In this document: positions 1 through 13,933 of the stretch, piece by piece
Layout: the number at the start of each line of letters is the position of its first letter
Numbering within the stretch: the stretch's first letter is position 1
DNA from: a virus
DNA length: 21,869 nucleotides
Direction: 5' to 3' (one strand)
IMG/VR virus record: IMGVR_UViG_3300020473_000140
Span: 1 to 21,869 of that record
Notes under the pieces: model-generated
Told to the model about the DNA's origin: nothing
What the model saw: only the letters and a program-made list of their open reading frames with translations
The model's database searches: none
Position numbers and translations under genes: made by a program

Positions 1-339
1 TCTAAAACCTCTATGAAGATTTGCACCAAGTTTCTTATCTTTGAATGGTCTAGCGTCAAGGTCCGTTAGAACATTTCTTCCATTGTTCGTTCCACGAATG
101 ATGACAATCGTAACACCTCTGTCCTGAATGACATCATAAGAAAACTCATTATCGCCAATCTCTTTCCCATCATCGTAAACTCTTTCACAATATCCAGCCA
201 TCTCCAAGAGAACTTCTATCCCTACTGGTAGATTTTCTTTTGTTCCGTTTGCACCACCCATACTCAAAAATTGATTTGTAGAAACACATGAACTAATTAG
301 TAGAGTTATTACTCCTATTATTATGAATTTCAACTTCAT
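1..339 (-). CDS. Lipoprotein with class-3 lipase-like domain (3' end beyond window)
   Basis: I read this frame directly: ATG at 337-339, then 113 codons open to the left edge. The product begins with a lysine-bearing start and a hydrophobic stretch (residues 4-15), followed by a lipobox I-S-S-C with the lipid-accepting cysteine at residue 18. That predicts a signal peptidase II lipoprotein of the cell envelope. The mature part has YCERVY (50-55), IVIIRGTNN (78-86), a following D-L pair and LHRGF (108-112). This order matches the N-terminal half of class-3 lipases (FRGT, then D-L, then HxGF). The catalytic GxSxG would lie outside the window, so activity is unproven. A GGAG element stands 8 bases before the ATG. 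The gene overlaps the holin-like gene by 47 bases, which suggests a lysis or envelope role. It could instead be a degenerate lipase-fold lipoprotein. Confidence 0.62.
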   Translation of the reverse strand, partial: MKLKFIIIGVITLLISSCVSTNQFLSMGGANGTKENLPVGIEVLLEMAGYCERVYDDGKEIGDNEFSYDVIQDRGVTIVIIRGTNNGRNVLTDLDARPFKDKKLGANLHRGFR

Positions 340-589
340 CTTTCTTTCTCCATGCAGTTGCACCAAGGATCGCTCCAAATGAAAGATGAAGCATAGCACC
401 TGCTTGTAATGTCAATGGTTCCCACCTGCTCGTCTTACAATCTTGACCAGACGCCAAAACCTCTGCACAAGCATCAAACATCAACAAATTCCACCAAAGA
501 GGCCCTACAAAGAAGTCGCACAAGCATATGAACAAATACACAAGTGCGGCCCAATCTCTCCAATAGCGATTTATTAACTTATTTATCAC
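293..589 (-). CDS. Putative holin-like small membrane protein
   Basis: 98 aa with two clear hydrophobic segments, about residues 13-36 (VYLFICLCDFFVGPLWW region) and 58-80, a basic N-terminus and a hydrophilic tail. The spacing and the motifs WEPLTLQ (56-62) and FGAILGATAW (71-80) resemble small phage holins with a YxxICLxDF first helix. Holins form inner-membrane lesions at lysis. The start is GTG at 587-589, overlapping the upstream gene's TGA as GTGA, so translation is probably coupled; only a weak Shine-Dalgarno is visible. No ATG lies before the end of the first helix, which supports the GTG. A lipase-like lipoprotein gene overlaps the 3' end, a setting that fits lysis. No endolysin is seen in the window, so the holin role is inferred from membrane topology and sequence resemblance. 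Confidence 0.6.
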   Translation of the reverse strand: MINKLINRYWRDWAALVYLFICLCDFFVGPLWWNLLMFDACAEVLASGQDCKTSRWEPLTLQAGAMLHLSFGAILGATAWRKKDEVEIHNNRSNNSTN

Positions 590-1568: not shown

Positions 1569-1991
1569 TCAACAATATTGAGCAAATTCACTGATAATCT
1601 TTGACCTTTCAGGATGTCTCATCCTATGCAATGCTCGAGCTTGCATTTGACGAACACGATCTTTACTTATTCCCATTTTTTGTCCCACCTCTTTCAGAGT
1701 ATGAACTTTACCAGACAATCCAAACCTCATGTCAAGAATCATTGATGATCTTTCATCCAAAGTAGAAAGACATTCCCTCAACTTCAACCCCAACATTTCC
1801 AACCGTACAGCGCCCATAACAGTTGATTCGCCATCTACAACATCCATGAAATCACGTTCAAGTTCCTCGTCGCCCATATTCACAAGATTGTCATCCAGTT
1901 CTTCTTCAAGAACTCTGCGAATCTTGATGTATTGGTCATAATCAGTCATTGACATACCTCCCCAATCAACTCCATTCTTTCCAATCGTCAT
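1569..1991 (-). CDS. Stand-alone sigma-70 region 3.2/4 protein
   Basis: 140 aa. Residues about 66-130 match the C-terminus of primary sigma factors: LDMRFGL (86-92), then a helix-turn-helix HTLKEVGQKMGISKDRVRQ (97-115) and ARALHRMRHP (118-127). In RpoD the equivalents are MRFGI, TLEEVG, RERIRQ and KALRKLRHP. Residues 43-60 (ELERDFMDVVDG) resemble the region 3.2 finger. Regions 1, 2 and 3.0/3.1 are absent, so the protein cannot melt a -10 by itself. The -35-contacting positions correspond to K110, D111, R114 and Q115, conservative with RpoD R, E, R, Q. AAGGAG stands 7 bases before the ATG. It has its own TTGACA promoter and is not overlapped by neighbours. It may bind the RNA polymerase beta flap, replacing host region 4 or acting like T4 gp33. 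The domain is certain, the role inferred. Confidence 0.88.
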   Translation of the reverse strand: MTIGKNGVDWGGMSMTDYDQYIKIRRVLEEELDDNLVNMGDEELERDFMDVVDGESTVMGAVRLEMLGLKLRECLSTLDERSSMILDMRFGLSGKVHTLKEVGQKMGISKDRVRQMQARALHRMRHPERSKIISEFAQYC

Positions 1992-2070: not shown

Positions 2071-2508
2071 TTATTTTGTGAGATATCTCAGAGCTCTCTC
2101 TACCGATTCAATGGTATCTCCAATACCCCCAAGTCCAGTATTGCAGGACTTACACAACCAACCACGAAACTCTTTAGTATCATGGTCATGATCACACTGC
2201 CAACCCCAACGACCATCGACACCTTCAGGAATCTCACTTTTATGACGATAAACAGGTTTGTCACAAAGATCACAATGGTCACCATATTTAGGTTTGGGAT
2301 GATCTTTCAGAAGAGTTTTCTTGATCTCTGAAAGTTCTTTGGATGTAGCACGAGCACAAGGATCACAATAAGTATTGACCCTCAGACGATAACCATCTTT
2401 TGTCAGTCGTGTCTTATAGAATGAAAAATGAATATTGTCTTTAACTGTCTTACAAACGGAACACTCACAAGTGCCCTCTGGGATGTTTGTCAAATCTTTC
2501 GCTTTCAT
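2071..2508 (-). CDS. 49: Recombination endonuclease VII (Holliday-junction resolvase)
   Basis: 145 aa, close to T4 gp49 (157 aa). The endonuclease VII signature is clear: CDLC (79-82), CDHDHD (105-110), RGWLC..CN (115-123) and LGGIGD (126-131). Four cysteines bind structural zinc, and the DHDH and N residues form the metal active site of the ββα-Me fold. It cleaves branched DNA before packaging. The N-terminus has a second pair, C16/C19 and C48/C51, an extra zinc-ribbon-like module. An in-frame ATG at 2572-2574 is rejected: it lies inside the promoter spacer, upstream of the predicted transcript start. The ATG at 2506-2508 has AAGGA a few bases upstream. The gene has its own promoter and is separate from the 46/47 operon. 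Confidence 0.9.
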   Translation of the reverse strand: MKAKDLTNIPEGTCECSVCKTVKDNIHFSFYKTRLTKDGYRLRVNTYCDPCARATSKELSEIKKTLLKDHPKPKYGDHCDLCDKPVYRHKSEIPEGVDGRWGWQCDHDHDTKEFRGWLCKSCNTGLGGIGDTIESVERALRYLTK

Positions 2509-2564
2509 GTTATCCTTTGATTTATGAGTTGTGAAAGATAGTGATAAATTATCATCACATAAAC

Positions 2565-2593
2565 AATATATCAAATTGTTTTGTGATTGTCAA
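2565..2593 (-). promoter_or_regulatory. Host sigma70-type promoter of endonuclease VII
   Basis: Minus strand: TTGACA (2588-2593), 17-bp spacer, TATATT (2565-2570), preceded by an A-tract. The -35 overlaps the stop codon of the preceding 111-aa gene. Transcription from about 2558 leaves a leader of some 50 bases to the ATG at 2508. Confidence 0.78.
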
Positions 2594-2925
2594 GTTTTTT
2601 GCATATTAATCATCATCATGAGTCCACGACCAGCTTCGATTGCAGTATCAACAATCCAATCAAGATTCTCTTCGTCATAGTTCCATTTTCCTTTGACATA
2701 TTCCACAAGTTCATCATATTCCTCATCTGTCAAATCTTCAATCTCTGGAAGAACCTCTTCAATATCATCTACCGCTTCAAAGAGTTTTTTCACAGGATCT
2801 ATGAAATATCTTGCATCACTCCATGACATTTCACCATCTGCTTTTGCTTTACCGACTGCTTCTACAAACGAGAATACGAAATCAATAATATCTCTCGTTT
2901 CTTCAATACCTCTTTTCTCAACCAT
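2590..2925 (-). CDS. Hypothetical acidic helical protein, 111 aa
   Basis: 111 aa, strongly acidic and predicted largely helical; no signal peptide and no catalytic motif. Acidic runs such as EEVLPEIEDLTDEEYDEL (about 57-74) and a hydrophobic patch DIIDFVFSFVEAVG (about 12-25) are the main visible traits. I do not recognise the family. It has AAAGGA about 8 bases before the ATG and overlaps the end of the deformylase gene by 8 bases, so it is probably the last cistron of the gp55-to-here operon. Its stop codon is part of the next promoter's -35. Confidence 0.7.
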   Translation of the reverse strand: MVEKRGIEETRDIIDFVFSFVEAVGKAKADGEMSWSDARYFIDPVKKLFEAVDDIEEVLPEIEDLTDEEYDELVEYVKGKWNYDEENLDWIVDTAIEAGRGLMMMINMQKT

Positions 2926-3445
2926 TTCTTTGTTTCCTTTCGACTTTGCGTTTTAGAATTTTACGTTTCTTCATTGCGGATTTCAGTTTGAAGTCCGATA
3001 CATTATCTATAAAAAGTTCACCTTCCATATGTTCCATTTCATGTTGAAATATTATGGACAACAAACCACCAAAACTTCCAAATTGTTCTGTCCCATCTTT
3101 GAGTTGAAATTTGACTCCAATTGTCTCTGCCCTTAAAACAGGCATGAAAAGATGAGGAAAAGACAAACATCCCTCTTTTTCATAAATTTCTTCGTCACTC
3201 CATTCCACAATTTCTGGATTAAAAACCGCCATTGGGTCACCATCAGAAATCATCGAAAACACTTTTGTTGGAATACCAATCTGATTAGCAGACAACCCGA
3301 TTCCATTATAGTGAAACATATTATCAATCAAACGTTTCTCAAGTTTATCTGGATCTTCGTGTGGACTGTCAAAATCATAACGATGAGGAACCTCTCGTAG
3401 AAAAGGATCTTTCTCATCAATCAAGGGCATAATCAAATCACTCAT
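2918..3445 (-). CDS. def: Peptide deformylase
   Basis: 175 aa, full length for the family. All three deformylase motifs are present: GIGLSANQ (48-55), EGCLS (91-95, with metal-ligand C93) and QHEMEH (134-139, with ligands H135 and H139 and catalytic E136). It removes the N-formyl group from new proteins in the cytoplasm. Marine phages often carry such a gene, proposed to keep maturation of new proteins going during infection. The third motif has E138 where bacterial enzymes usually have D (HExDH). A basic C-terminal tail follows (about 159-173). It overlaps the upstream 78-aa gene and the downstream 111-aa gene by 8 bases each. A GAAAGAG element stands about 7 bases before the ATG. Confidence 0.95.
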   Translation of the reverse strand: MSDLIMPLIDEKDPFLREVPHRYDFDSPHEDPDKLEKRLIDNMFHYNGIGLSANQIGIPTKVFSMISDGDPMAVFNPEIVEWSDEEIYEKEGCLSFPHLFMPVLRAETIGVKFQLKDGTEQFGSFGGLLSIIFQHEMEHMEGELFIDNVSDFKLKSAMKKRKILKRKVERKQRNG

Positions 3446-3674
3446 GGTTTAACTCTTTCTTGAGGGTTTTAACTTCTTGTTCAAGACGATCAACTCGCAT
3501 AGATAACAATTCTACTGGTGAATAATAACGTGGAACTGCTTTGTTTGCTTTTGTTTGCCAGGTTTCTCCACCAGTTACACCAATTCTTTCAACAGTTTCA
3601 CGACCATTCTTTTTATTATGTTCGTCAATGTCATTGATGTATTCACCAGCTGTTGTAAATTTTAAATCATTCAT
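3438..3674 (-). CDS. Hypothetical protein with C-terminal coiled coil, 78 aa
   Basis: 78 aa. The last third (about residues 52-77) has a leucine/valine heptad pattern, ELLSMRVDRLEQEVKTLKK, typical of a short coiled coil. The N-terminus is polar and unrecognised. It shares a 4-base ATGA overlap with the end of gp46 and an 8-base overlap with deformylase, so it is translationally embedded in the recombination operon. It may help oligomerisation or contact a neighbour's product; no function can be assigned. Confidence 0.68.
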   Translation of the reverse strand: MNDLKFTTAGEYINDIDEHNKKNGRETVERIGVTGGETWQTKANKAVPRYYSPVELLSMRVDRLEQEVKTLKKELNHE

Positions 3675-5389
3675 ACTGTCTCTATCTTACTGAAGTTTTT
3701 TTCTTTCACAAACTTGATTGTGCTGAGAAACTTATCATAAAGAATTTCTCCTTTGTGTGAAATCACGAACACATTGGTATTTTCATCCATCGTGTTTATG
3801 ATTTTGAGGAATGCATCAGTTCCATCTGCATCAAGAGAAGAGTCAAACACCTCATCCATAATAAGTAGATTGGTGTTGACACTATTCTTGAGTTTTGCAA
3901 CCTGACGCCATGTGAACAGAAGTGCAAGGTCAATCCTCATCTTCTCACCTTCTGAAAAAGAAGAGTAAGTAAACTCATCACGATATTGAGAACGAATTGT
4001 CTCGTTGAAGTTTTCGTCAATCGAAAAGTTGATGAGGAAGTCAAGCTCATTTAAATACTTGTTGACAAACTTGTTGATTATCGGCACGTACTGTTTGATA
4101 ATCTTTGTCTTGATTCCTGTGTCACGCAAAAGTTCATGTGCATAGTCATAAAGTTGTTTCTGTTCTGTCAACTTAGCATAATCCTGCAAACACTCTTCAA
4201 GATTCTGTTGTAATAATTTTAGTTCATCTTTCTCTGTATTGTCAAGTTTTTTCTTGTCTCTAAGTTTTTGAATCTCTTGCGTAGTTTTCTTTATATTTTC
4301 ATCCAATGAACCAATATAGGATTGAAGCGCTGCAACTTTCTTGTTCTTTTCTACGATTGACTGACCAATCTCTTGAAACTCACGCAAAGTTTGTTCCAAA
4401 GAATCTATTTCTGATTGTATGTCATCAATAGCATCGTCATATTTCTTTGATTGATCCAACAATTGTGTATTTCGTGTCTTCTTGAAAGTTTCATTGATAG
4501 GTTGCTCACATACTGGACAATCATCATTCTTGGTAAAAAACTCTCGTTGTTTATCTACCTCTGATTTCTTTGCACCAATCTTGTTCTGAACTTTGTTGTA
4601 TTCTTTTGTCTTCTTCTTGACTGCATCCTCATTTGTCAGTTTTTCTCCCAGAGTTCCTATTTCTGTTTGAAGTGCAGCTACTGTATCAGTTTCTTCGTTG
4701 ATTGTCTCTCTGTAATTCTCAATGTCCTTTTCTTTTTGTGATATGACTGATTCGTTGTCCACCTTGAGTCGTTCAATATAATCTTCTTGAATCTTTATCT
4801 TCTGGTTATACAATCCTTTCTCTACCTCAAGAGTTCCCAAGTCATCTTTCAACTCCAAGTTCTTTTTCTTGAGAACAGTATTCATCGTTGAGAAAATTTG
4901 TATGTCAAGTAAGTCCTCAACAATAGCTCGTCTGTCTGACTGTTTAAGTTGCATGAATGGTTCAAAACTTGAACTTCCAAGCAGAACAATTTGAGTGAAC
5001 GATTTGTAATTCAGTTTGAGAATAACCTTTTCCAGATACTCTTGATAATCTCTATTGTTTGCCAACTGGTCAATCAACTTACCATTCAGATGAATTTCAA
5101 ATAGATTTGGTTTTGCTCCTCTGCGAACAATATAGTTCTTCTTACCAATCGTAAACTCAATCTCTACCAACAAACTCTTTTCGTTGATGGTGTTCACCAG
5201 TTGTGGTTTGTTAATATTGCGATATGCTTTTCCAAACAACCCAAAAGTCAGGGCATCAAGAATAGTTGACTTTCCAGAACCATTCTCTCCAATGATAAGA
5301 GTTGTTGGTGATCTGTCAAAAAAGACAGTTGTTGGATTATCTCCTGTTGAAAGAAAGTTAGACCAAGAAATTTTTTTAAATGTAATCAT
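3671..5389 (-). CDS. 46: gp46 recombination nuclease ATPase subunit (Rad50/SbcC-like)
   Basis: 572 aa (T4 gp46 is 560). SMC/Rad50 layout: Walker A GENGSGKST (34-42), two long coiled-coil arms (about 165-285 and 300-415), zinc-hook CPVC (291-294) at the apex, ABC signature SFSEGEKMR (477-485), Walker B LLIMDE (508-513) with the D-loop SSLD (517-520), and H545 as switch histidine. With gp47 it resects DNA ends for UvsX-dependent recombination and replication restart, and in T4 it helps degrade host DNA. The ATG overlaps the stop of the 63-aa gene as ATGA. A TTGACA/TAAAAT pair occurs inside the gene (4216-4245), listed under rejected items. Confidence 0.97.
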   Translation of the reverse strand: MITFKKISWSNFLSTGDNPTTVFFDRSPTTLIIGENGSGKSTILDALTFGLFGKAYRNINKPQLVNTINEKSLLVEIEFTIGKKNYIVRRGAKPNLFEIHLNGKLIDQLANNRDYQEYLEKVILKLNYKSFTQIVLLGSSSFEPFMQLKQSDRRAIVEDLLDIQIFSTMNTVLKKKNLELKDDLGTLEVEKGLYNQKIKIQEDYIERLKVDNESVISQKEKDIENYRETINEETDTVAALQTEIGTLGEKLTNEDAVKKKTKEYNKVQNKIGAKKSEVDKQREFFTKNDDCPVCEQPINETFKKTRNTQLLDQSKKYDDAIDDIQSEIDSLEQTLREFQEIGQSIVEKNKKVAALQSYIGSLDENIKKTTQEIQKLRDKKKLDNTEKDELKLLQQNLEECLQDYAKLTEQKQLYDYAHELLRDTGIKTKIIKQYVPIINKFVNKYLNELDFLINFSIDENFNETIRSQYRDEFTYSSFSEGEKMRIDLALLFTWRQVAKLKNSVNTNLLIMDEVFDSSLDADGTDAFLKIINTMDENTNVFVISHKGEILYDKFLSTIKFVKEKNFSKIETV

Positions 5390-5577
5390 TCTGTTTCATT
5401 CAATAATTGTGGTTTAGTTCCATTTTCAAACTGATAGTCAGATTCTTTGATTTTATCTTCTAATACTCTGATGATGAAATCATTAAGTGTTATTTTATGC
5501 TCGTGAGCTGCAAGTGACAATTGCACGATTGTTTTGTCATCTAATGCAAGTTCTACATCTACTGTTTCTTTAGTCAT
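5386..5577 (-). CDS. Hypothetical protein, possible ribbon-helix-helix-like, 63 aa
   Basis: 63 aa. It begins with a strand-like stretch (TVDVELALDD) followed by two probable helices, the second being ITLNDFIIRVLEDKIKE. This is reminiscent of ribbon-helix-helix or CopG-like folds, but the usual basic DNA-contacting strand is absent and the protein is acidic. I do not assign DNA binding. It is linked by 4-base ATGA overlaps to the oxygenase gene before it and gp46 after it, so it is co-translated with the recombination nuclease. Confidence 0.68.
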   Translation of the reverse strand: MTKETVDVELALDDKTIVQLSLAAHEHKITLNDFIIRVLEDKIKESDYQFENGTKPQLLNETE

Positions 5578-6413
5578 GATTTTTCTATCGTTAGGGTTGG
5601 AATCTCACCTTTGTAGGTTGTTTGACCTTCTTTCATTTGTTTAGTTTGGTTTGCTTCCAACAATTGTTTTTGTTGTTCTTGTTGTGCTTTTATTTCATCC
5701 TCAGTTGCAAAAATGGCATTAAAAGACACGCTTCTCCTTTCTCCTTTTCCATCAGCAGTTCTGAACGGATAGACGAAATGTGATTGTTGTGCTGGAAAAA
5801 CAAAGAAATCTCCCACCTGAGGCCTCCATGAAAATTGAGGTGATACTAATTGAGAATCGTTACAAGTACTATTTACAAACACAATATTTCCATCGTCTTC
5901 CCTACCTTTTTTTCTACTTGGAAGATACTCTGGTATTTTAAGATACATTACAGAAGATATTTGACACTCAGTATGAATGTGCATAGGATTATATTCACCA
6001 TCTTTCTGTGATATAACCCACATTGACAACATTTGAGTCAACCATTTTTCTTGTTGTATCGCTTGTTCATTGCCTGGGTGTTGTTGTGATTTTGTTGCAA
6101 CTACAAAATGACGAACTATGTCCATGAAAAAATTATAGATTCCAGCTTCGTGTAACTTTTCGTGTTCTATATACAATTCGTGTTCTATTTGTCCTGCAAG
6201 ATTCTTACCCCAACTTTTTTCGTTTTCTGCGTTGTCTACCATCTCGTCTGTAATCTCAAGCATCTTACCCAAAATAGGATCTGGTAATTTTGTCTTCATA
6301 ACAAAAGTAGACCAAGGTTGAATCATCGACATATTCATTTCAAACTTTTGTTCTGGAACTCTATTTTTCTTTTTTTCTTTTCTTTCTTGCATTCTTCTTT
6401 GTTGTCTATTCAT
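5574..6413 (-). CDS. 2-oxoglutarate/Fe(II)-dependent oxygenase family protein
   Basis: 279 aa. The double-stranded β-helix signature is visible: NPMHIHTECQISSVMYLKIP (142-161, first iron-binding histidine region H145/H147), GDFFVFPAQQSHFVYPF (201-217, distal histidine H212) and RRSVSFN (226-232, with R227 suited to bind 2-oxoglutarate). Such enzymes hydroxylate proteins, nucleic acids or small molecules; the substrate here is unknown. Residues 1-20 are very basic (RQQRRMQERKEKKK), suggesting contact with nucleic acid, and the C-terminus is glutamine-rich. It lies between gp47 and gp46, which are usually close neighbours, with ATGA overlaps on both sides. A role tied to DNA or to the 46/47 complex is inference only. 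Confidence 0.82.
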   Translation of the reverse strand: MNRQQRRMQERKEKKKNRVPEQKFEMNMSMIQPWSTFVMKTKLPDPILGKMLEITDEMVDNAENEKSWGKNLAGQIEHELYIEHEKLHEAGIYNFFMDIVRHFVVATKSQQHPGNEQAIQQEKWLTQMLSMWVISQKDGEYNPMHIHTECQISSVMYLKIPEYLPSRKKGREDDGNIVFVNSTCNDSQLVSPQFSWRPQVGDFFVFPAQQSHFVYPFRTADGKGERRSVSFNAIFATEDEIKAQQEQQKQLLEANQTKQMKEGQTTYKGEIPTLTIEKS

Positions 6414-12535: not shown

Positions 12536-13933
12536 TTACATCAAGTTAGCAATTCTGCACTTTCTGTAATATTCATTTTGTTCTGCAGCAGCGTTTGAAG
12601 TAACACCTGTTACTCGTCCACCAGCAGCAGTACCTTCAGCTGCAAGTCCACCTTCTGCAAATGGATTTGCAACCATTCCGTATCGTGTTTTGAAAGCGAT
12701 ACGTGGTTGAAAACTGGAACTATCAACCGCACGAACCATTTGCAATGGAACATATGGGCAATAGAAAATACCAGCATCCATTGGAGATGCACCTTTATAA
12801 CCTACTGTATAGTATTCTGCAGCATTCTTTGCAGCAAAAGGATCAACATACACTTTGTAACGTCCGTTGAGAACACCAGCAAAAGTATTTGATGCTTCGT
12901 CAACGTTAAGGTCTGTGCTCATTGAAGGTGCGTAGTCAAGGACTCCGGCCATCTGAAGAGCAGATGCAACGTCTGAGGATGTAATGATGATGTTTCCTTT
13001 ACCTCGGCGAGTTCCCTTAGCAATGGAGTTAGCATCACGCTCAATGTGCATCATAAGACCTTTGAACTTCTCAACCATCCAACGTCCGTTAGAATCTGTG
13101 TCAAGGTCAAATACACCAGTGTTAGTAGAAGGTGTGTCACTGATCTTTGCGTTGATGTAAATCTTACGAACAACCTCACGATTGATCTCTGCAAGAATTT
13201 CAGCGGAAAGAATGTTTGCAAGTTCACCCTCAGCATCAAGACCATGAACAGCACGCAGGTCTTGTGCAAGTTCCATTGAATAGGAACCTTTGAGTGCTCT
13301 TGTTCCAGCGGCAACTGAAACTTTTTCAATTGTGAAAGTCATTTCATTTGAAATGTCTCCCTCACCAGTTGTTGTTGTCATTGCCGAACCAGATGAGTAA
13401 ACAGTTGCAGTAGCATTTGCTGTTCCATCTGTATGAATTAAAAGCCCTGGTGTTGTTACTGCATCACCAGTTGAATTTCCGGCTTGTCCAGAGAAACTAG
13501 TCAATGCTTCATTAAAAAGTTTTTCTTCTCTGTCCTGTGTTGCATTAGCAGTAGCTGCACGAGCACGTAATGCAAAAATAAGTCCAGTTGGTCCAGACAT
13601 TGGTTGTACACCACAAATATCATAAGCGATAAGTTGTGGCATTGCACGGCGAACCATGCTGATAAGAACTGGGTCAGCAAAAGCGACATCAGTTTGAGTA
13701 GGATTACCCAATACACCACCAACGTTAGGATCTGGTGTTGAAAGACCCATTGCAGTCAATGGTGTTGCTTCTGAAAGAAGTCCTCCACCTTGCTGGTCTT
13801 GAGCAAATTGTTTTTCAACATTCTCAAGACATAAAGCAGTTACCGCTCTTCGATGACTATCCTTAATCTCTGGGAGTTCGGGATGGTCAAGAACAGGCGC
13901 CCACTTTTTATTAATTTGTTCTGCGAGTTGCAT
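12536..13933 (-). CDS. 23: Major capsid protein gp23
   Basis: 465 aa (T4 gp23 is 521). Highly typical of the marine T4 group: RRAVTALCLENVEKQF (28-43), the VRRAMPQLIAYDICGVQPMSGPTGLIFALRA section (about 93-123), GDISNEMTFTIEKVSVAAGTRALKGSYS, and AEGELANILSAEILAEINREVVRKIY. It assembles the HK97-fold shell and is cut by gp21; a matching site LLSE|A occurs at residues 52-56. AGGAG stands 7 bases before the ATG. It follows scaffold gp22 at 40 bases and ends before a strong terminator, as expected of a highly expressed gene. No vertex gp24 gene is found beside it. Confidence 0.98.
   Translation of the reverse strand: MQLAEQINKKWAPVLDHPELPEIKDSHRRAVTALCLENVEKQFAQDQQGGGLLSEATPLTAMGLSTPDPNVGGVLGNPTQTDVAFADPVLISMVRRAMPQLIAYDICGVQPMSGPTGLIFALRARAATANATQDREEKLFNEALTSFSGQAGNSTGDAVTTPGLLIHTDGTANATATVYSSGSAMTTTTGEGDISNEMTFTIEKVSVAAGTRALKGSYSMELAQDLRAVHGLDAEGELANILSAEILAEINREVVRKIYINAKISDTPSTNTGVFDLDTDSNGRWMVEKFKGLMMHIERDANSIAKGTRRGKGNIIITSSDVASALQMAGVLDYAPSMSTDLNVDEASNTFAGVLNGRYKVYVDPFAAKNAAEYYTVGYKGASPMDAGIFYCPYVPLQMVRAVDSSSFQPRIAFKTRYGMVANPFAEGGLAAEGTAAGGRVTGVTSNAAAEQNEYYRKCRIANLM

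Follow-up and report, generated by a model that had tools for sequence, protein, structure and literature searches.

The two-component spanins of phages lambda (Rz/Rz1) and T7 (18.5/18.7) are encoded by a lipoprotein gene that overlaps, in another frame, the gene of an inner-membrane protein. In mycobacteriophages, lysis involves the lipolytic enzyme LysB, which acts on the outer layer (available part of PMC5707550). For the methylophage Melnitz, the available part of PMC9004378 gives one putative endolysin and proposes a role for a curli pore in the timing of lysis. Class-3 lipases are represented by the lipase of the T4-like Prochlorococcus phage P-SSM2 (phrog_21992) and, among eukaryotes, by the fungal lipases and feruloyl esterase A. 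The fungal lipases and feruloyl esterase A have no lipoprotein anchor, and to our knowledge LysB has neither a lipid anchor nor an overlapping partner with two transmembrane (TM) segments. Our literature searches turned up neither a phage lipase system in lysis nor a two-gene module of the kind reported here, and the available part of PMC9636201 does not contain the word 'lipase'.

The stretch of DNA analysed here (the window) comprises 21,869 bases of a virus record. This 21.9-kb fragment belongs to a T4-like marine phage and has most of its genes on the minus strand (Table 1). Its major capsid protein has its closest cultured relatives in the Pelagibacter phages Mosig and HTVC008M (56%), followed by cyanophages and Methylophilales phages (~54–55%). 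The cultured relatives listed infect Gram-negative marine bacteria.

Table 1. Positions of the module and of other features in the window
Feature	Position	Strand	Basis or remark
Lipoprotein class-3 lipase gene, 5' part	1..339	minus	frame and lipobox, complete relatives, Lipase_3, fold
Lipobox Cys18 codon	286..288	minus	sequence
98-aa two-TM protein, GTG start	293..589	minus	frame and family alignments
Overlap of lipase and two-TM genes, 47 bases	293..339	minus	coordinates
GGAG, probable ribosome-binding site of lipase	348..351	minus	inside two-TM gene, sequence read directly
Sigma factor	1569-1991		phrog_351
Endonuclease VII	2071-2574		
Peptide deformylase	2918-3445		phrog_2890, E 8e-35
Protein resembling 2-oxoglutarate oxygenase	5574-6413		by eye
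T4-like major capsid gene	12536-13933		

A class-3 lipase with an invariant catalytic triad

At the left edge of the window, a minus-strand frame begins at an ATG (339–337), which the GGAG (351–348) precedes by 8 nt, and encodes a protein that starts MKLKFIIIGVITLLISSC. Reading of this frame confirmed the features for which the first-pass annotation had singled it out: a lipobox with cysteine at residue 18, followed by IRGT (81–84) and LHRGF (108–112). The edge cuts the gene after 113 codons, with the 3' end beyond the window. Because the window ends before the catalytic serine, we used relatives for the catalytic residues. A pattern scan of IMG/VR with the 114-aa window fragment returned 24 loci, most with complete proteins of ~240–265 aa, and a profile scan returned 429 relatives, of which the best 79 loci were analysed. 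The complete relatives are lipoproteins of ~245 aa with a class-3 lipase domain. One of them (L003) matched Pfam Lipase_3 (PF01764) at 72.2 bits against a cut-off of 22 (E 5e-20), and 19 of 20 members matched at E 0.1; the exception (12.3 bits) is consistent with the cut fragment from the window.

Ser139 (in GHSLGG), Asp187 and His228 were invariant in the alignment of 65 distinct sequences (65/65; best 79 of 429), among which identity falls to 36%, as were RGT (82–84), His109, Gly111 and Phe112. Simple text patterns recovered the aspartate in 69 and the histidine in 72 of 75 rows. The dN/dS of the mature lipase was 0.02–0.13 in 15 pairs of relatives, with dS saturated in many. A structure model built from 48 relatives (pLDDT 79) showed the class-3 lipase fold, matching feruloyl esterase A (2ix9) with a Z of 20.9 and an rmsd of 2.8 over 204 aligned residues; for feruloyl esterase A and Rhizomucor lipase together, Z was 20–21 over ~204 residues. 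The lipase profile also matched fungal lipases in the PDB. The catalytic Ser and Asp region aligned with that of the fungal lipases and feruloyl esterase A (4tgl, 1tib, 2ix9), although these are eukaryotic enzymes with only ~20% identity. From this family membership and modelled fold, the protein is almost certainly a lipid-ester hydrolase, which bears out the class-3 lipase first suggested by the fragment. The first-pass annotation would have been refuted by a full-length protein without the GxSxG serine and the fold; both are present in the complete relatives, along with the downstream aspartate and histidine. A weak fold match to a Mycobacterium phage hydrolase was also seen (E 0.06).

The P-SSM2 lipase belongs to the same enzyme family (window fragment against phrog_21992, E 7e-6) and likewise to T4-like phages, but it shares ~32% identity over 65% of the length and has neither a lipobox N-terminus nor a two-TM gene before it. 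A complete lipase compared with 50,697 phage records gave only 14 matches, all below 60% identity; therefore, no phage record in that collection carries the lipobox form closely. Chance or artefactual frames were ruled out by the hundreds of relatives that keep the catalytic residues. A recent host origin was rejected as well, the best bacterial relatives among the top matches listed reaching at most ~38% identity in the best segment.

A predicted outer-membrane anchor

Cysteine occupied the lipobox column in 60 of the 62 distinct relatives that reach it. We examined 76 genes for a lipobox (75 loci and the window), of which 73 keep the 5' end, L002, L022 and L107 being cut there; a lipobox was present in 70 of these 73 (best 79 of 429). 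The lipobox, pairing and triad counts omit L046–L060, L062 and L066, whose contigs were already represented, and L013–L016, which carry the same lipase as L012. The three genes that lack a lipobox (L110, L116 and L117) are near-identical; phenylalanine takes the place of the cysteine, and in this lineage the lipase is possibly soluble and periplasmic.

Wherever the cysteine is present, the residue after it is V, M, L, T, A or S and never aspartate. Glutamate occurs at that column in two rows, both of them phenylalanine variants. By the E. coli sorting rule, lipoproteins without aspartate at position +2 go to the outer membrane, and the missing aspartate therefore indicates this location. We infer from these residues that the lipase is probably acylated at Cys18 and held in the outer membrane, facing the periplasm.

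A near-obligate overlapping gene pair

The 47-base overlap with a small membrane-protein gene, noted earlier in the window, was exact. A two-TM gene lay directly upstream of 60 of the 70 lipobox lipases (best 79 of 429). All 60 adjacent pairs had the same relative frame; 58 of them overlapped by 17–74 bases and two were separated by a one-base gap, lengths that rest on a heuristic choice of start codon. The lipases without the lipobox cysteine (L110, L116 and L117) also follow the partner gene. The other ten lipobox lipases had no adjoining upstream partner (L017, L019, L023–L025, L068–L070, L072 and L076); L019 has a copy of the partner upstream, at 5726–5980, and in L072 and L076 its place is taken by another protein with two hydrophobic stretches. 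When loci were fetched by the two-TM sequence alone, a lipase lay directly downstream in 78 of 80 (best 80 of 506 relatives), a count made of 77 by script and L223 by frame reading, with several of the 80 contigs near-identical. The two loci with no adjoining lipase were L218 and L242. L223 carries two complete pairs (58–1102 and 3989–4979), each followed by the same two genes.

The pair was found in more than one setting. In the window it lies downstream of the sigma-factor region, with the same two genes also preceding it in L003 and L006; in L004, L012 and L269 it follows a series of membrane and periplasmic genes. Only the lipase, on its own, occurs among virion genes in L023 and L024. The movement of the pair as a unit between different settings argues for a joint function. 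We regard it as secure that a genuine class-3 lipase with a lipoprotein signal forms a tight, near-obligate overlapping two-gene module with the two-TM protein, and equally that hundreds of viral contigs carry it. Uncultured marine T4-like phages are its likely carriers. The pairing is far more conserved than a single window could reveal.

In the partner, a basic N-terminus leads into a hydrophobic stretch; ~30 residues of loop separate this from a second hydrophobic stretch, and the tail is basic. The two-TM call is one of hydropathy only. Asp25 and His68, which lie in or beside the hydrophobic stretches, were invariant in 83 of 83 aligned sequences (of 84 distinct). Homologues with no adjoining lipase are present in the jumbo phages Atu_ph07, Phosso and PA5oct. 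Those of Atu_ph07 and PA5oct are near tail-fibre or structural genes, and that of PA5oct is annotated as structural with mass-spectrometry support.

The near-obligate pairing and the joint duplication would suit a partner that restrains, folds or releases the lipase and so averts early damage to the cell, and the same fold occurs in a lipase effector of a type VI secretion system (T6SS) whose structure was determined together with its immunity protein (9cys, Z 12.3). We nevertheless consider such a controller very unlikely: the short loop offers only ~30 residues between the hydrophobic stretches, 10 of the 70 lipobox lipases have no upstream partner, and the jumbo phages carry the partner without an adjoining lipase.

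Gene neighbourhoods and possible envelope remodelling

Upstream of the pair, L016 (7163–9465) and L269 (7701–9579) encode a 114-aa multi-TM protein and a solute-binding protein (SBP_bac_3, E 3e-10), together with a CxxCH membrane protein that matches SoxA/TsdA cytochrome c only weakly (E 0.0012). In both, the gene for a protein with a PycTM (Pycsar effector) domain lies beside the pair (L016, 11174–11761, E 1e-21; L269, 9591–10181, E 2e-23), and L016 also encodes a phage-borne ammonium transporter (3320–4576, Pfam E 7e-102). By eye, L266 (3845–5885) and L029 (531–2117) contain a run of membrane proteins reminiscent of ExbB/TolQ and ExbD/TolR, which in contig G034 is flanked by a small lipoprotein; the stretch at 979–1626 of L029, part of one member, had no clear match in Pfam.

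The pair is often found in a run with the solute-binding protein, the cytochrome-c-like membrane protein and the PycTM protein, in one contig together with the ammonium transporter. Such company would be consistent with envelope remodelling or lipid scavenging, in which the lipase frees host fatty acids for energy, membrane change or vesicle shedding and has no direct part in lysis. This explanation, which we regard as unlikely, does not account for a near-obligate tie to a single small membrane protein.

The partner and the endolysin

The first-pass annotation had called the partner holin-like and proposed that a lipase next to a holin could break the outer membrane, or else be an envelope-modifying or exclusion protein. 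In size (98 aa) and in its two hydrophobic stretches by hydropathy, the partner is indeed like a phage holin, but it matched no curated holin family in Pfam or PHROGs. The Atu_ph07 homologue gave sub-threshold matches to phrog_3427 (holin) and to GTA_holin_3TM, and the phrog_3427 search was non-specific, with matches in 10 of 14 control genomes at a loose limit and in 3 of 24 records. Attempts to place the partner in a holin family through Pfam, PHROGs, bridging homologues and phrog_3427 produced weak, non-specific matches only.

Holin genes are usually, if not obligatorily, next to the endolysin gene. Of 30 distinct contigs searched, four gave an M15 endolysin (phrog_894). In each of these four, which show the lipase as well, the two genes were 28–44 kb apart (G034, 28 kb; G015, 36 kb; G016, 37 kb; G010, 44 kb), and G016 has no two-TM gene before the lipase. 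The gene directly upstream of the endolysin in G034 matched GTA_holin_3TM over nearly its full length at 13.3 bits, against a cut-off of 24.8, and belongs in PHROGs to phrog_6637, a family of unknown function. These phages may therefore have another holin. Of the original proposal, the lipase is strongly supported and its membrane-protein neighbour confirmed; the partner is holin-like in size and topology only, and the part in lysis is no more than possible.

Spanins and the late motif

Endolysin and spanin genes near the pair had also been suggested as a check. Beyond the distant endolysins, Pfam Rz (PF03245) gave no match at E 1 in 16 of 16 contigs, most of them fragments. A simple screen that looks for a one-TM protein beside a small lipoprotein recovered the lambda and T7 spanins. 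In ten contig sets it found no embedded pair beyond the present module, which was listed for the window, lipoproteins of more than 200 aa being listed for the window only. It gave one non-overlapping candidate in G034, a small lipoprotein (L266, 5652–5885) adjoining a TM protein, and two doubtful candidates in G018 (L019). The lack of spanin matches is suggestive only, because the contigs are incomplete and spanins diverge fast. The module shares with two-component spanins a lipoprotein gene that overlaps a membrane-protein gene in another frame, but it falls outside their definition: its lipoprotein is a 245-aa enzyme, and its partner is a two-TM hairpin with no Rz family match.

The consensus of the T4-type late motif is TATAAATA. 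In the window, three genes of the virion cluster have an exact copy that starts 33–49 bases before them. Upstream of the partner gene, we found no exact copy within 700 bases at any of 62 loci, some of which have fewer than 700 bases available. This speaks mildly against a late promoter of the module's own; the result is weak because transcription may start further upstream.

A pair with no late motif next to it could be produced early in infection and change the envelope in such a way that injection by a second phage fails. Like the partner, T4 Imm is small and membrane-bound, and Llp of phage T5 is a lipoprotein. However, the invariant catalytic triad means that enzyme activity matters, and we know of no exclusion protein that is a lipase. 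We judge superinfection exclusion to be quite unlikely.

A possible role in lysis

Our best guess, which is a tentative one, is that the enzyme is a periplasm-facing outer-membrane lipase acting at lysis. After export, the lipase would receive its lipid at Cys18 and be delivered to the inner face of the outer membrane, from where it would attack envelope phospholipids from the periplasmic side, and the partner would be an inner-membrane hairpin protein. The two proteins are probably made together, because the lipase start lies inside the partner gene. As infection ends, the two-TM protein would permeabilise the inner membrane or signal there, the endolysin would then remove the wall, and the lipase would weaken the outer membrane by hydrolysis, where spanins work by fusion. 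The phospholipid substrate, the co-translation, the topology and the lysis role are all what we infer from genes and predicted proteins.

The lysis role is favoured by the invariant triad, a Lipase_3 score over the cut-off, the fold match (Z 20.9) and a lipobox without aspartate at +2, and further by the overlapping pairing, the joint duplication in L223, the lack of Rz matches in 16/16 contigs and the spanin screen. It is weakened by a partner that matches no holin family above threshold, by an endolysin that is 28–44 kb away and once beside a possible holin, by the lack of TATAAATA near the partner in 62/62 loci, by the 10/70 lipobox lipases without a partner, and by the position of the pair, in several genomes, among host-takeover- or transport-like genes.

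If the module does act at lysis, it would work somewhat like LysB, through enzymatic action on the outer layer (available part of PMC5707550), and be arranged somewhat like Rz/Rz1, in both cases by analogy. LysB differs in acting on mycolyl-arabinogalactan. It is doubtful, if conceivable, that marine T4-like phages have here a new and widespread mode of outer-membrane lysis for Gram-negative hosts, in which a two-gene unit of a dedicated inner-membrane hairpin and a lipid-anchored lipase would break the outer membrane enzymatically, without spanins or disruptins.

The conserved lipoprotein lipase and its near-obligate membrane partner provide a concrete two-gene candidate for the unsettled step by which marine T4-like phages get through the outer membrane. 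If its role is not in lysis, the lipase would still be an enzyme that many phages direct against the envelope of their hosts.
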